Shown: positions 1,998 to 29,433 of the stretch, piece after piece | Position numbering within the stretch: the stretch's first letter is position 1 | Layout of the letters: every line of letters begins with the position of its first letter | Assembly (NCBI GenBank): GCA_016125285.1 | Contig: WGMA01000028.1 | Location: forward strand, 124,001 to 188,000 | Length of the DNA: 64,000 bases | Origin: Phycisphaera sp. | GTDB taxonomy: Bacteria > Planctomycetota > Phycisphaerae > Phycisphaerales > Zrk34 | Direction: 5' to 3' | Program-made: the position numbers and the translations under genes | The notes under the pieces: generated by a model | The model's input: only the letters and a program-made list of their open reading frames with translations | Told to the model about the DNA's origin: nothing | The model's database searches: none

Positions 1998-4867
<2,870 letters not shown>

Positions 4868-4997
4868 ATCGACCAGACGTCGATGTATGTCAGCCCCAAA
4901 GCTGATACGCTCAACGTGCATTTGCACGCATCTACGATATCTTCGATATCAACGACGCCATCCCACGGGATACGACAAACCCATTATCTGACTTCAG

Positions 4998-5024
4998 CCG
5001 GCGCCGTCTAACGGCGACGCCGGT
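4998..5024 (+). other. 23S-5S spacer processing hairpin
   Basis: In the 160-nt spacer, GCCGGCGCCGT and ACGGCGACGCCGGT flank the short loop CTA and form a strong hairpin just before the 5S. This is typical of an rRNA maturation site. No tRNA is seen in the spacer. Confidence 0.45.
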
Positions 5025-5028
5025 TCTT

Positions 5029-5136
5029 GTCGGTGACCAAACAGGCACGGGGAAACACCCGATCCCATTCCGAACTCGGCCGTTAAGCCCGTGTCGCCGA
5101 TGATACTGCAACAGCGGGAAAGTAGGTATCGCCGAC
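5029..5136 (+). rRNA. rrf: 5S ribosomal RNA
   Basis: Contains the 5S core GATCCCATTCCGAACTCGG (5061-5079) and AGTAGGTATCGCCGAC at the 3' end. The terminal stem GTCGGTGAC (5029-5037) pairs with ATCGCCGAC (5128-5136), allowing G-U pairs. About 108 nt as delimited by this stem; true ends may extend slightly. Co-transcribed with the 23S. Confidence 0.95.
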
Positions 5137-5141
5137 TTTTT

Positions 5142-24348: not shown

Positions 24349-26247
24349 TCAGCCCCCGCCGCCGCCCATGGCCGCGAGCGTGTGCTTCAGTTCGGCCAGC
24401 GAAAGCAGCGCCATCGATGTGGTGTACAGCGGCTGGCGGTTGTCCCACAGGCTCACGCGCACGCCGCCGATCGCCTCGGCGGGGTTCCGCACGTAGAACG
24501 CGCCGCTCGGCTGCATCGTCAGCTGCTTGATGAAGCGCGCCGCCATGCCCGCGTTGACGATCCAGCGGATGCGGTCGTTCTCGGCCATCGCGTTGGCGTG
24601 TCGCAGCACGACGGACTGGCCGGCGAGCGTCACGGCGCTCTGCCACGTGGGTTCTTCGAACAGACCGTTGGTCGTCAGGTAGCCGCCCACGGCGTCGGGC
24701 TGAGCGCCTTCGAGCGGCTGGACCTGGTTCTTCCACATGCGTTCGCCCCAGCCGATCAGGAACTCGATGCGCTCGGCGCGGTTTTGGCCGAGCCGCTCGA
24801 GGTCGGTCTCCGCGTAGCTCAGCCACGGCATCAGGTGGTCGACCGTGCTGTCGAGCGACTGCTCCTTGCCGAGCTTCTCGACACGCTTCCACAGCGAGTC
24901 GAGGGCCGCCACGGCCTGTCGCGCCGCCGCCGGTTCGCGCGTCTGGTCGAACAGCCTGGCCAGCGCCGCGGCCCCGAGGGCCTGGTCGATCGGCGTCGCC
25001 TCGCGTGCGCCCTTGACGTTGTTGTCCGCGAACCAGCCGGTCTCCTCGTTGAACATACCGCTCAACGCGGTGCCGAGCCGCAGGCGGTCGTTCTTCAGGT
25101 CGCCGGTGTTGGGCGTCTCCATCAGCGACAGCAGCAGCAGGGCGGTCATCTTCAGGTCGGCGACGGCGGGTCCCTTGATGATGGCGGCGCCGTCGTCGGC
25201 CTTGAGGATCTGCGCGTCGAGCAACGCCTTGACCGCCTTGCGCGCCGCGTCCTGGGCCAGCGTCCGCTGCTCGAGGTCGAGTCGGCTCAGCCGCGCCGTC
25301 CGCGCCAGCGCGAACGCCGCGACCGCCATCTCCGGCGCCGCGGAGATGGCCGGCTCGTATATGTCCGACGTCGGTTGATATGTCCCGGCGAACAGGCCGT
25401 CCTGCCGCTGGCGGTGGATCAGGTGGCCGGACAGCTGAACGAGCAGCGCGTCGAGCGGCTTGTCCATAATCGGCTGGGTGGGCAGCAGCTCGTTGCCGCG
25501 GTGCAGGAACACCGGCTCGGCGTCGAGCGCGGGGCGGACGATGTGGATCACGTCGCAGCGGTACAGCTCGGGCCCGTCCTGCTGGCCGACCTCCTGCAGC
25601 TTGTCGAGCGGGTAGTGCAGCTCGCCGAGCAGGCGGTTGATCTGACTGAGCAGGTTGGCGTTGGTGGAGATGTTGTTGCTCGGCAGCGACCACGCCCACT
25701 CGGTCGCGCGGCGCATCGACAGGCCGTCGGCGTCGAGCGTGATCAGGCTCGGCAGGTCGCGCAGGTTCTTGGCGCGGACCTGCTTGAGATTCACCGCGAA
25801 CTGCACGTCGAGCAGCAGCTTCTCACGCTCCTCGACCAGCGCGTTGGGCGCCTTCAGCGTCACCGCCGCCGCCTTGATCGCCTCGCGCGTCGCCTGCTGC
25901 AGCAGCGGCATCAGGTCGACGCGCTTGGGTTTGCCGGGTTTGCCGTTGTCGTCGAGCGCCGCCGGGTCCGCGACCGCCGCGGTCGCCTGACCGAGCGTCG
26001 GGCCACCCTTGCGGATCGTCACGTGCACCGCGGCGAGTCCCTCGATCTCGATCGGCAGCACGAACTCCGCGACGCGCAGCTGACGCATCCAGCCCTCGGC
26101 CAGGTCGTACGCCTGCCGTGCGGCCACGCGGTTGGACGCCGCGACGTCCTGCGCGCTTGCCGCCGGCCCGCCTGCGCACACAAGGAGCGCAGCGAGCATC
26201 AGCGTGGAAATGGCTTGGCGTACGGTGGGGCGATCGGTCGTCATCAT
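24349..26247 (-). CDS. Secreted alpha-helical protein of unknown function
   Basis: 632 residues. The signal peptide (ISTLMLAALLVCAGGPAASAQ) starts from MMTTDRP at 26247 or 26244. Residues about 280-620 consist of repeated helical pairs such as EMAVAAFALARTARL, LKMTALLLLSLME and GAAALARLFDQTRE, suggesting an alpha/alpha toroid of the prenyltransferase or terpene-cyclase type, without a recognised catalytic motif. It ends with a glycine run. The frame stays open far upstream through leuA in another frame, but that part is a shadow. Follows leuA on the same strand after about 55 bp, so it may be partly co-transcribed. Confidence 0.7.
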   Translation of the reverse strand: MMTTDRPTVRQAISTLMLAALLVCAGGPAASAQDVAASNRVAARQAYDLAEGWMRQLRVAEFVLPIEIEGLAAVHVTIRKGGPTLGQATAAVADPAALDDNGKPGKPKRVDLMPLLQQATREAIKAAAVTLKAPNALVEEREKLLLDVQFAVNLKQVRAKNLRDLPSLITLDADGLSMRRATEWAWSLPSNNISTNANLLSQINRLLGELHYPLDKLQEVGQQDGPELYRCDVIHIVRPALDAEPVFLHRGNELLPTQPIMDKPLDALLVQLSGHLIHRQRQDGLFAGTYQPTSDIYEPAISAAPEMAVAAFALARTARLSRLDLEQRTLAQDAARKAVKALLDAQILKADDGAAIIKGPAVADLKMTALLLLSLMETPNTGDLKNDRLRLGTALSGMFNEETGWFADNNVKGAREATPIDQALGAAALARLFDQTREPAAARQAVAALDSLWKRVEKLGKEQSLDSTVDHLMPWLSYAETDLERLGQNRAERIEFLIGWGERMWKNQVQPLEGAQPDAVGGYLTTNGLFEEPTWQSAVTLAGQSVVLRHANAMAENDRIRWIVNAGMAARFIKQLTMQPSGAFYVRNPAEAIGGVRVSLWDNRQPLYTTSMALLSLAELKHTLAAMGGGGG

Positions 26248-26303: not shown

Positions 26304-27860
26304 TCACGGATGCGCGGTCGACGCCGCCTCGGCCGTGCGATAGTCCAGCGAACGCAGCCGGTTGATCGCCGCGAGGTACGCCAGCGCCGACGCCTCGATG
26401 ACGTCGGTGCTCACGCCGCGCCCGCGCACGCGGGTGTCGTGATGACGCAGCTCCACGCGGACCTCGCCCATCGCGTCCTTGCCGCCGGTGACCGCGCGGA
26501 TCTGGTAGTCCGTCAGCTCCGCGGTCACGCCGGTGATGCGCTGGATCGCCGAGTAGATCGCGTCGATCGGGCCGTCGCCGGTCGACGCGTCCGTGCGCGT
26601 CTCGCCCGACGAGTCGGTGATGGTGACGGTTGCCGTGGCGATCGGGTGCGTGCCGCCGTTGACCTGCAGGTAGGCCAGCGACCACAGGTCCGTGCGCGAC
26701 GCGCTGTCGAGGTCCGACTCCAGCAACGCCTCGATGTCCTCGTCGTACACGTTCTTCTTGCGGTCGGCCAACGCCTTGAACTTCGTGAACAGGCGATCGA
26801 CCGCCGCGTCGTCGACGCTGTAGCCCAGCTCCTCGATGCGGGCGCGGAACGCGTGTCGGCCGGAGTGCTTGCCCAGCACGAGCTTGCTCTCGGGGATGCC
26901 CACGTCGCGCGGGTCCATGATCTCGTACGTCGTGCGCTCCTTGAGGATGCCGTCCTGGTGGATGCCCGCCTCGTGCGCGAACGCGTTCTCGCCGATGATC
27001 GCCTTGTTCCGCTGCACGTCCAGCCCGGTCAGCTTCGAGACCATCCGGCTCGTGCGGTAGATCTCCTTCGTCTTGATCTTCGTCGTGAGGTCGTAGTAGT
27101 CGCCGCGCGTGTTCATCGCCATCACGACCTCCTCGAGCGACGCGTTGCCCGCGCGCTCGCCGATGCCGTTGATCGTGCACTCGATCTGCCGCGCGCCGTT
27201 CATCGCCGCCGCGAGGCTGTTCGCCACCGCCAGGCCCAAATCGTTGTGGCAGTGCGCCGAGAGGATGATGCCCTTCGCGTCGATCACCGGCAGCTGTTCA
27301 CGCAGATAGGAGAAGATGCGGCCGTACTCCTCGGGTGTGGCGTAACCGACGGTGTCGGGCAGGTTGATCGTCGTGGCGCCCGCGTCGATCGCGGCGCCGG
27401 TGATCTCGACGAGGTGGTTCAGCTCCGTGCGCGACGCGTCCTCCGGGCTGAACTCCACGTCGTCCACAAACCCGCGCGCCCGCTCGATGTGATCGACGCT
27501 GATCTTCACGATCTCGTCGAACGCTTTCTTGAACTTGTGCTCGAGGTGGATCTTGCTGGTGGCGCAGAACACGTGGATGCGCCCGTGCGCCGCGTTCTTC
27601 ACGGCCTCACCCGCGCGGTCCACGTCGGCCGCGACGCAGCGGCTCAACCCGCACACCGTCGCCCGGCCCAGCTCGCCGGCGATCGTCTTCACCGCCTCGA
27701 AGTCGTCGTTCGACGTGATCGGGAAACCCGCCTCGATGATGTCGACGCCCAGCGTCTCGAGCTGACGAGCGATCTCGATCTTCTCGGCGCGGTTCAAGCT
27801 CGCGCCGGGGGACTGCTCGCCGTCACGCAACGTCGTGTCAAAAATCCTGACCGTATCCAT
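26304..27860 (-). CDS. leuA: 2-isopropylmalate synthase
   Basis: 518 residues. First committed step of leucine synthesis: condenses acetyl-CoA with 2-oxoisovalerate. The catalytic barrel opens IFDTTLRDGEQSPGASL (metal-binding Asp and Arg) and continues with NLPDTVGYATP, HCHNDLGLAVANSLAA (His-Asn metal ligands) and NGIGERAGNASLEEVVMA. The C-terminal allosteric leucine-binding domain is present (about 390-505, STGDGPIDAIYSAIQ). ATG 27860 is preceded by GGAG. A leader peptide rich in Leu codons and an attenuator lie 80-230 bp upstream, so expression should rise when leucine is scarce. Single gene; leuB, leuC and leuD are not in the window. Confidence 0.97.
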   Translation of the reverse strand: MDTVRIFDTTLRDGEQSPGASLNRAEKIEIARQLETLGVDIIEAGFPITSNDDFEAVKTIAGELGRATVCGLSRCVAADVDRAGEAVKNAAHGRIHVFCATSKIHLEHKFKKAFDEIVKISVDHIERARGFVDDVEFSPEDASRTELNHLVEITGAAIDAGATTINLPDTVGYATPEEYGRIFSYLREQLPVIDAKGIILSAHCHNDLGLAVANSLAAAMNGARQIECTINGIGERAGNASLEEVVMAMNTRGDYYDLTTKIKTKEIYRTSRMVSKLTGLDVQRNKAIIGENAFAHEAGIHQDGILKERTTYEIMDPRDVGIPESKLVLGKHSGRHAFRARIEELGYSVDDAAVDRLFTKFKALADRKKNVYDEDIEALLESDLDSASRTDLWSLAYLQVNGGTHPIATATVTITDSSGETRTDASTGDGPIDAIYSAIQRITGVTAELTDYQIRAVTGGKDAMGEVRVELRHHDTRVRGRGVSTDVIEASALAYLAAINRLRSLDYRTAEAASTAHP

Positions 27861-27941
27861 CGGAATGCTCCGTCTCTGTCAAATTCGAGCGTTTCGCTCG
27901 TGTGTGTATTCGTATCGTCTTGACGCGTAGCCTGGTCCAAC

Positions 27942-27974
27942 AAAAAAGCCCCGTCCGCTTCAGGCAGACAGGGC
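27942..27974 (-). terminator. leuA attenuator terminator
   Basis: On the minus strand, CCCTGTCTGC (27973-27964) pairs with GCGGACGGGG (27958-27949) across a 5-nt loop, with an extra outer G-C pair, and is followed by six T residues (27947-27942). It lies about 80 nt before leuA. Its left arm can instead pair with GCGGATAGGG (28023-28014) at the end of the leader peptide gene, which would prevent terminator formation. Confidence 0.85.
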
Positions 27975-28015
27975 AGGTTGGTCCGTTGATTCCGTGTGGC
28001 TAGACCGATCGCTCC

Positions 28016-28090
28016 CTATCCGCCCGAAGCGGACAGCAGTAGGACGAGGCTCAGGAGCAGGCCGTCGTTCTGGTAAGCGTTGCGATCCAT
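28016..28090 (-). CDS. leuL: Leucine leader peptide (attenuation)
   Basis: 24 residues; codons 11-19 read Leu-Leu-Leu-Ser-Leu-Val-Leu-Leu-Leu, seven leucines in nine codons. The segment TGTCCGC (28035-28029), directly after the Leu codons, pairs with GCGGATA (28023-28017) to form a 1:2 hairpin with a TTCGG loop; GCGGATAGGG (28023-28014) pairs instead with CCCTGTCTGC (27973-27964) over ten positions as the 2:3 antiterminator; and 27973-27964 with 27958-27949 is the 3:4 terminator. This is the complete logic of ribosome-mediated attenuation: stalling at Leu codons masks region 1 and frees region 2. No Shine-Dalgarno; TAGACT ends 8 nt before the ATG, so initiation is probably near-leaderless. 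Confidence 0.85.
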   Translation of the reverse strand: MDRNAYQNDGLLLSLVLLLSASGG

Positions 28091-28098
28091 GACGCGAA

Positions 28099-28127
28099 AG
28101 TCTAGCAGGGCGGGCCCCGGCGGACAA
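28099..28127 (-). promoter_or_regulatory. leuL-leuA promoter
   Basis: Minus strand -35 TTGTCC (28127-28122), 17-bp spacer, -10 TAGACT (28104-28099). The start would fall at about 28091-28092, one or two nt before the leader peptide ATG at 28090. It lies between the end of the PAS-protein gene (28135) and leuL. Confidence 0.65.
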
Positions 28128-28134
28128 GCGCCGA

Positions 28135-29433
28135 TCAGTCGTTCGGCGCGCTCTCCCAGAACACGCCGTGGACGCCGGTGACGTTGCCCGCGTCGTCGAA
28201 CACCGGGCTCTTGAGCACGCGGACCTCGCGCCGCTCGCCGGTGGGGGTGTAGTTTTCCTCGACGATGTCGAGCGTTTCGTGCGATTCGATGACGTGCCGA
28301 TCATCCGTGCGGTACTTGCGGGCCGCCTCGTACGGGAACAGGTCCTCGTCGTTCAGGCCGACGATCTCTTCGGCGGGGCGGTTGACGCGCCGCGCGAACG
28401 CCTCATTGACGAACGTGAAGCGGCCGTTGGCGTTCTTGCGGAACGCCGGGACGGGCATCGCCTCGATGAGCTTGCCGTAGATCGCCTCGACGGACTGCTC
28501 GGCGGCGTGGCGCTTCGTGGCCTGGTCGACCAGGTCGTCGTTCATCAGGCGGACCTCGGCGTAGGTGCGGCTGTGGTCGAGCAGCAGGCCGCCGAGGCGT
28601 GAGAGGTACGCCACGAGCACCAGCACGTGGGCGAGGAAGAACGAGCGGTCGAACGCCGCGCCGGAGCCGAACGCCATGTGCGCGTGTGCCGCGAACGCGG
28701 GGATCGCCGCGAGCCAGATCGCCAGCGCGAACTGCGTGCGGATCTGCCGGTACAGCGCCGGGAACACCGCCACGCCGCCGATGAAGTACACGGCCAGCGG
28801 CAGCAGGTCCCACGGCCGATGCAGCCACGTGCTGTCATGGACGGCGCTGGTGACCGCCGGGCTCGTGCCAACGAACCGCGCCACCGAGTAGCCGACGACG
28901 AACACGACCGGGCCGATGATGTTGATCAGCGTCATGTCCGAGTCGTGCGGGTCCTGCCCACGGCGGCGGACGATCAGCGCCGCGCCGCTCACGAGGATAA
29001 ACCCGCTGCACGCCCGACAGACGGCCCAGACGAACGCGATCACGTTGGCTTTCGCGGCGGCGCCTTCGACGTTCGCCACCAGCGCGTCGCTGAGCATGTA
29101 GTAGTACACGTCGATCGCCGCGGCCCAGCAGACGGCCACGCCGATCACCGGCGCGGCGACGTGCACCTTCATCCGCACCTGCTCCCACGACGCGACCGCC
29201 GTGAACGCCGCGGTGAAGACCATGCCCGCCGCGAGCAGCGTGAGGATGAAGCTGTCGCCGAGCCGCTCGTACAGGAACGACGAACCGAGCGCCGACACGT
29301 CGGGCATGCCGAACGCGACAAACGCCAGCTCGATCAGCACCGCGGCGCCGATCACGCCGGTGATCAGCGCCTTGGGTTCCCACGTGACGGGCAGTCGTTG
29401 GAGGGTGACGTCGGGGTGGATGGTTGTGCTCAT
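28135..29433 (-). CDS. Multi-pass membrane protein with C-terminal PAS domain
   Basis: 432 residues. About seven or eight membrane helices occupy residues 20-290, then a short coiled linker (SRTYAEVRLMNDDLVDQATKRHAAEQSVEAIYGKLIEA) leads to one PAS domain (about 310-425: PVPAFRKNANGRFTFVNEAFARRV, VGLNDEDLFPYEAARKY, REVRVLKSPVFDDAGNVTGVHGVF). No histidine kinase, GGDEF, EAL or phosphatase domain follows; the chain stops right after PAS. It may be a sensor that acts through a partner, or it has lost its output. It starts 48 nt after the pseudopilin gene on the same strand, so it is probably the last gene of a pseudopilin operon. Confidence 0.75.
   Translation of the reverse strand: MSTTIHPDVTLQRLPVTWEPKALITGVIGAAVLIELAFVAFGMPDVSALGSSFLYERLGDSFILTLLAAGMVFTAAFTAVASWEQVRMKVHVAAPVIGVAVCWAAAIDVYYYMLSDALVANVEGAAAKANVIAFVWAVCRACSGFILVSGAALIVRRRGQDPHDSDMTLINIIGPVVFVVGYSVARFVGTSPAVTSAVHDSTWLHRPWDLLPLAVYFIGGVAVFPALYRQIRTQFALAIWLAAIPAFAAHAHMAFGSGAAFDRSFFLAHVLVLVAYLSRLGGLLLDHSRTYAEVRLMNDDLVDQATKRHAAEQSVEAIYGKLIEAMPVPAFRKNANGRFTFVNEAFARRVNRPAEEIVGLNDEDLFPYEAARKYRTDDRHVIESHETLDIVEENYTPTGERREVRVLKSPVFDDAGNVTGVHGVFWESAPND

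Follow-up and report, generated by a model that had tools for sequence, protein, structure and literature searches.

A predicted leucine-codon transcription attenuator before leuA in Planctomycetota, with an isoleucine counterpart before cimA

The region upstream of leuA, the gene of 2-isopropylmalate synthase, in the window (the whole 64-kb stretch of DNA analysed, carried by a genome of 6.09 Mb) raises the question of whether leucine synthesis is controlled there by a ribosome translating a leader peptide. The first-pass annotation had proposed a complete leucine attenuator at this place. This reading is well supported at the level of sequence by the runs of Leu codons and the covarying helices found in relatives, and leuA is very probably preceded by a ribosome-mediated transcription attenuator sensing charged leucyl-tRNA. 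The features of the locus are collected in Table 1.

Table 1. Features of the leuA leader region, in positions of the window
Feature	Position	Strand	Basis
-35-like hexamer TTGTCC, 17-nt spacer to the -10 hexamer	28122..28127	-	position in relatives
-10-like hexamer TAGACT, extended TG at 28107-28106, ends 8 nt before the leader ATG	28099..28104	-	position in relatives
Leader peptide ORF MDRNAYQNDGLLLSLVLLLSASGG, ATG...TAG, 24 codons	28016..28090	-	ORF reading; homologous leaders in relatives
Control codons, 7 Leu in 9 (CTG CTC CTG AGC CTC GTC CTA CTG CTG)	28034..28060	-	shuffle control, codon usage
Strand 1, forms the protector 1:2 hairpin with 28023-28017	28029..28035	-	strong in the window, weakly conserved
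Strand 2, 5' half of the antiterminator, GCGGATAGGG, leader stop codon inside	28014..28023	-	pairing and covariation
Strand 3, GCCCTGTCTGC, common to the antiterminator (3' half) and the terminator (5' half)	27964..27974	-	pairing and covariation
Strand 4, 3' half of the terminator, GCGGACGGGGC	27948..27958	-	fold, covariation
U6 tract of the intrinsic terminator	27942..27947	-	six T in the sequence
Shine-Dalgarno-like GGAG of leuA, 7 nt ahead of the ATG	27868..27871	-	read from the sequence
leuA, 2-isopropylmalate synthase, the regulated gene	26304..27860	-	NCBIfam NF002086 768 bits (cut-off 532 bits), TIGR00973 725 bits (cut-off 598.7 bits)

The leader peptide with seven Leu codons in nine proved exact to the base as annotated, and its final Leu codon stands six codons ahead of the stop. 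A run of this density was found in 0 of 3920 shuffled upstream regions. When both strands of the window were scanned for short reading frames with at least four identical residues in nine (12 residues tested) followed by a terminator, the leuA leader was the only one detected.

For comparison, about 100 leuA loci were located by leuA protein searches. Judged by leuA (61-75% identity), the nearest named genomes bear mainly the labels Phycisphaeraceae, Phycisphaerae or Phycisphaerales, of the phylum Planctomycetota. A covariance model (R1) was rejected for counting the class-wide distribution: its strong matches (E below 1e-9) were same-order leuA leaders, and many weak ones covered the terminator part only, so the distribution was counted from the protein searches instead. 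At least five Leu in nine were present upstream of leuA at 58 of 98 loci of the class (59%, versus 1.7% in dinucleotide shuffles), and none of the other residues tested at these loci exceeded 3%. Within the order, at least four Leu in nine were found at 21 of 23 loci (null 7.4%) and at least five at 15 of 23 (null 0.65%), for example in the leaders MNAYRTMPTALLLSLALVLTALRG, MKQQTTYSNIHSDSKDLLGLLLLSVRG and MQRDLLLTGDLGIGLLGLLLIPSAG. In same-order leaders, CUA accounts for 22% of the Leu codons, whereas its share in the leuA genes of these genomes is 1% (odds ratio 21.7, p 3e-19). Rare control codons raise the sensitivity of leu attenuators.

Beyond the class, a Leu run with a terminator occurs within the phylum in families f51, f58, f72, f92, f56 and f90, so that conservation of the predicted attenuator through much of Planctomycetota is well supported by sequence; most of the leuA loci examined from groups outside Planctomycetota carry no leader of this kind. 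Parts of the device are poor or absent in some relatives (L024, L018 and L022). A close leuA orthologue was not found in near-complete genomes of the same-order families f2, f3 and f5 and of G001 of the same family; these may be leucine auxotrophs or use a different 2-isopropylmalate synthase.

The RNA of the leader can form two mutually exclusive helices, both of them as the first-pass annotation had drawn them. The antiterminator pairs GCGGATAGGG (28023-28014) with CCCTGTCTGC (27973-27964) over 10 bp, and the leader UAG stop (28018-28016) lies within its strand 2. Taken alone, the antiterminator pairing of the window is only moderately better than that of shuffles (p 0.034). The terminator comprises 11 bp (27974-27964 with 27958-27948) and a loop of 5, followed by six T at 27947-27942; its fold of -21.6 kcal/mol (z -4.07) was equalled by 0 of 200 shuffles, and the fold of the full leader has z -2.8. 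The annotated 1:2 pairing is real in the window, where RNAfold gives a longer hairpin of -14.2 kcal/mol, but it is not clearly conserved past the closest relatives and was set aside as a conserved element. In the unconstrained minimum-energy fold, a pairing absent from the annotation, strand 1 with strand 4 (GUCCGCUUC with GAAGCGGAC), lies atop 2:3. The full leader at equilibrium thus favours 2:3 together with 1:4, and termination would hinge on the order of cotranscriptional folding and on the ribosome.

Compensatory changes, named by the first-pass annotation together with Leu runs as what relatives should display, are present in both helices. Pairing across 16 same-order leaders amounts to 92% in the antiterminator helix and 88% in the terminator; it falls to 56% or below in shifted registers, and cells with double changes number 19 in the terminator and 7 in the antiterminator, counts reached in 0 of 500 shuffles for either. 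The 2:3 duplex exceeded shuffles with a combined p of 5.5e-17 in 26 leaders and of 3.5e-33 in 53 further leaders (p<0.05 in 35 of them), the two sets having three loci in common and related loci, and hence their p-values, not being independent. When arms were swapped between 15 families, the own strands 2 and 3 paired at -19.8 kcal/mol versus -10.7 kcal/mol for swapped ones (permutation p 1e-5), a mean cost of 9 kcal/mol. Strands 2 and 3 are GCGGATAGGG and CCCTGTCTGC in the window, GATCGTAGGG and CCCTGCGATC in f11, GGCGTAGGGC and GCCCTACGC in f10, AGGTCTTAGG and CCCTGAGACC in f51, and GGCCTTAGGG and CCCTGAGGCC in f72. The leader stop codon lies within strand 2 in most leaders, and UAG, which the helix needs, is the stop in 17 of 22 same-order leuA leaders versus 8 of 35 genes of the window (about 23%).

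These structures bear on whether the Leu leader might act through translational control or Rho and not through an intrinsic terminator. Such control has been proposed for terminator-less leuA leaders of Actinobacteria, and leaderless Leu leaders are known there (PMC1262725, PMC8079986); terminator-less Leu leaders also occur in families f18, f20 and f23 of the class. However, the window and nearly all of its same-order relatives retain a strong terminator with its U tract, as well as an antiterminator that covaries, which makes this route improbable here and favours attenuation of transcription.

The terminator-less leuA leaders of f18, f20 and f23 (L203, L204, L207, L209, L211-L214 and L217) end in LLLLRR or LLLLRP before the stop. 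In most of the leaders of these families the stop is enclosed in a GC-rich hairpin (CTGCGCC...TAG...GGCGCAG), with a GCATAAT-like element further downstream.

A second leader was found in the same genome before the paralogue cimA, encoding citramalate synthase (TIGR00977, 622 bits), the entry to isoleucine via the citramalate route. Upstream of it (L002, contig C3 of G000), the leader MSNRIDIAIAMIISSDTNR, closed by a stop codon, is followed by a terminator. Runs of Ile precede cimA at 18 of 22 loci (L002, L226-L244 and L026; null 0.9%), for example MNTRIIGIIIIDEHPCW and MTTANASIIAIAIIITYPM, and upstream of the leuA loci no Ile runs were present. All 18 Ile leaders end in UAG; in most cimA leaders a stop-spanning strand similar to CGGTAGGGC pairs with GCCCTGCC of the terminator (combined p 1e-10); the -10 box is located 6-10 nt before the leader ATG at many loci; and the codon AUU is enriched (odds ratio 6). 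The predicted attenuator before cimA matches that before leuA but carries an Ile run, so that the identity of the control codon tracks the pathway product. The contrast between leuA and cimA is the best internal control, the architecture being alike, the codon different and the pathway matching. Checked individually, ilvB, trpE and hisG of the same genome have no leader with a terminator, which indicates that the device is not general to the amino-acid operons of this genome.

The cimA leaders also bear on the possibility, still less probable than translational or Rho control, that the nascent peptide arrests the ribosome on free leucine and that charged tRNA is not sensed through codons. In favour of arrest, the leaders are hydrophobic and short motifs such as LLGLLLLS recur in some of them, but outside the Leu run the peptides differ in sequence, and the residue becomes Ile at cimA. 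Together with the enrichment of CUA and AUU, this points to codon reading by the ribosome.

The promoter was assigned in the window by its position in relatives; the match of the window itself is weak (8/12), and a standard promoter scan reported no promoter upstream of its leader. A sigma-70-like promoter with the -10 box 6-12 nt before the leader ATG was found at 21 of 22 same-order loci, the first in-frame ATG being taken as the start in L004 and L020, and at the remaining one (L005) the distance fits only with a UUG start. Over a wider set, the promoter stands 5-11 nt before the leader start at 42 of 76 loci (mode 7), versus 1.1% in shuffles. Outside the order, at loci such as L037 and L044, the 5' part is longer and the promoter 20-24 nt away, and AGGAG is present ahead of the leader ATG in L037. 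Given the distance between the -10 hexamer and the leader ATG in the window, the transcript should start at the AUG or within a few nucleotides of it, and with the promoter so near the AUG in Phycisphaerae the mRNA on which the leader is translated should be leaderless. To judge from promoter position, the leader is therefore probably leaderless. The first-pass annotation was right as to the anatomy of the leader and had missed this leaderless form, the stop codon in strand 2 and the cimA twin.

Least probable of all is that the hairpin is a mere terminator of the upstream PAS-domain gene, which lies on the strand of the leader with its stop at 28135, 45 nt from the leader ATG, and that the Leu-rich reading frame arose by chance, since the leader with its choice of codon, the antiterminator and the terminator are found as a set ahead of leuA across the class and in parts of the phylum, the Leu run was never reached in shuffles, a promoter-like site stands between the PAS-domain gene and the leader, and strand 2 would be superfluous for an ordinary terminator.

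For the ribosome-mediated attenuator, the following course of events is proposed. Transcription would begin at or beside the leader AUG, giving a leaderless end on which a 70S ribosome would initiate. With ample leucine, the ribosome would reach the UAG and, as strand 2 spans the leader stop, would sit on strand 2 and mask it; 3:4 would then pair and RNA polymerase would halt at the U tract ahead of leuA. A shortage of charged Leu-tRNA would stall the ribosome in the Leu run, which by the geometry of the last Leu codon should place it just short of strand 2; 2:3 would pair, the terminator would be blocked and leuA would be transcribed. With no ribosome on the leader, strand 1 could sequester strand 2, favouring termination.

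Leucine attenuators are classic in Proteobacteria (PMC2659441) and have been reported in Actinobacteria (PMC1262725, PMC8079986) and Staphylococcus (PMC5794164). The emphasis placed by the first-pass annotation on an occurrence outside Proteobacteria is thus correct but not itself new, Leu leader peptides having been described in the latter two groups; according to a paper of 2010, no leader peptides had been known outside Proteobacteria and Actinobacteria until the Firmicutes case that it described (PMC2965389). A literature search limited to open-access papers found no report of a leucine attenuator in Planctomycetota and none for cimA, a result that is provisional.

The proteobacterial leu operon (leuL, Shewanella/E. 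coli type) shares the Leu-codon leader, the exclusive antiterminator and terminator, the U tract and leuA downstream, and compensatory changes have been described for it as well (PMC2659441). In contrast, the leader in Planctomycetota has a probable leaderless start and a stop codon within strand 2, leuA is not directly followed by leuBCD, the next gene lacking a Pfam match, and an Rfam search of the window and the leader gave no match to the leader at the gathering score, only noise with E up to 10. In Actinobacteria (C. glutamicum ilvBNC; S. lividans leuL before leuS and leuA), an AUG at the transcription start, a run of branched-chain amino acid codons and attenuation are likewise found (PMC11857589, PMC8079986), whereas actinobacterial leuA leaders have no typical terminator and contain a LEU element pseudoknot (PMC1262725) in place of the terminator/antiterminator pair seen here. 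The attenuator peptide of S. aureus ilv-leu is also a Leu-rich leader involved in repression of branched-chain amino acid genes (PMC5794164), but phylum and operon are different, and CodY acts there too.

The kind of device is accordingly known; new are its wide presence in Planctomycetota, a form that is probably leaderless, the placing of the stop codon within the antiterminator and the occurrence of matching leaders at leuA and cimA. Codon-reading transcription attenuation would thereby be extended to a phylum for which no report was found, and the leuA/cimA pair shows that among paralogues of a single enzyme family the control codon changes with the pathway product. The leaders form a natural series of rebuilt switches, leaderless or led by a Shine-Dalgarno sequence, with the stop inside or beside strand 2, and with or without a terminator, and a simple reporter could test amino-acid control in a group that has been little studied. 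A broader picture is put forward tentatively, with doubt slightly outweighing belief: in Planctomycetota, chiefly Phycisphaerae, LeuA and CimA at the branch points of branched-chain synthesis may be under paired leaderless attenuators with Leu and Ile codons and UAG in the antiterminator, and several leuA families may have become terminator-less, sensing leucine via a stop-codon hairpin by an undescribed mechanism.

A small hairpin, CGAGCGAAACGCTCG on the minus strand, is located at 27886-27900 of the window, between the terminator and the Shine-Dalgarno sequence of leuA. The gene 59 nt past leuA (24349-26244, minus strand), possibly co-transcribed with it, encodes the 631-aa protein without a Pfam match mentioned above, which has a signal-peptide-like start. 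Genes of LSU rRNA and 5S rRNA were found on the plus strand at 1998-5137 of the window.
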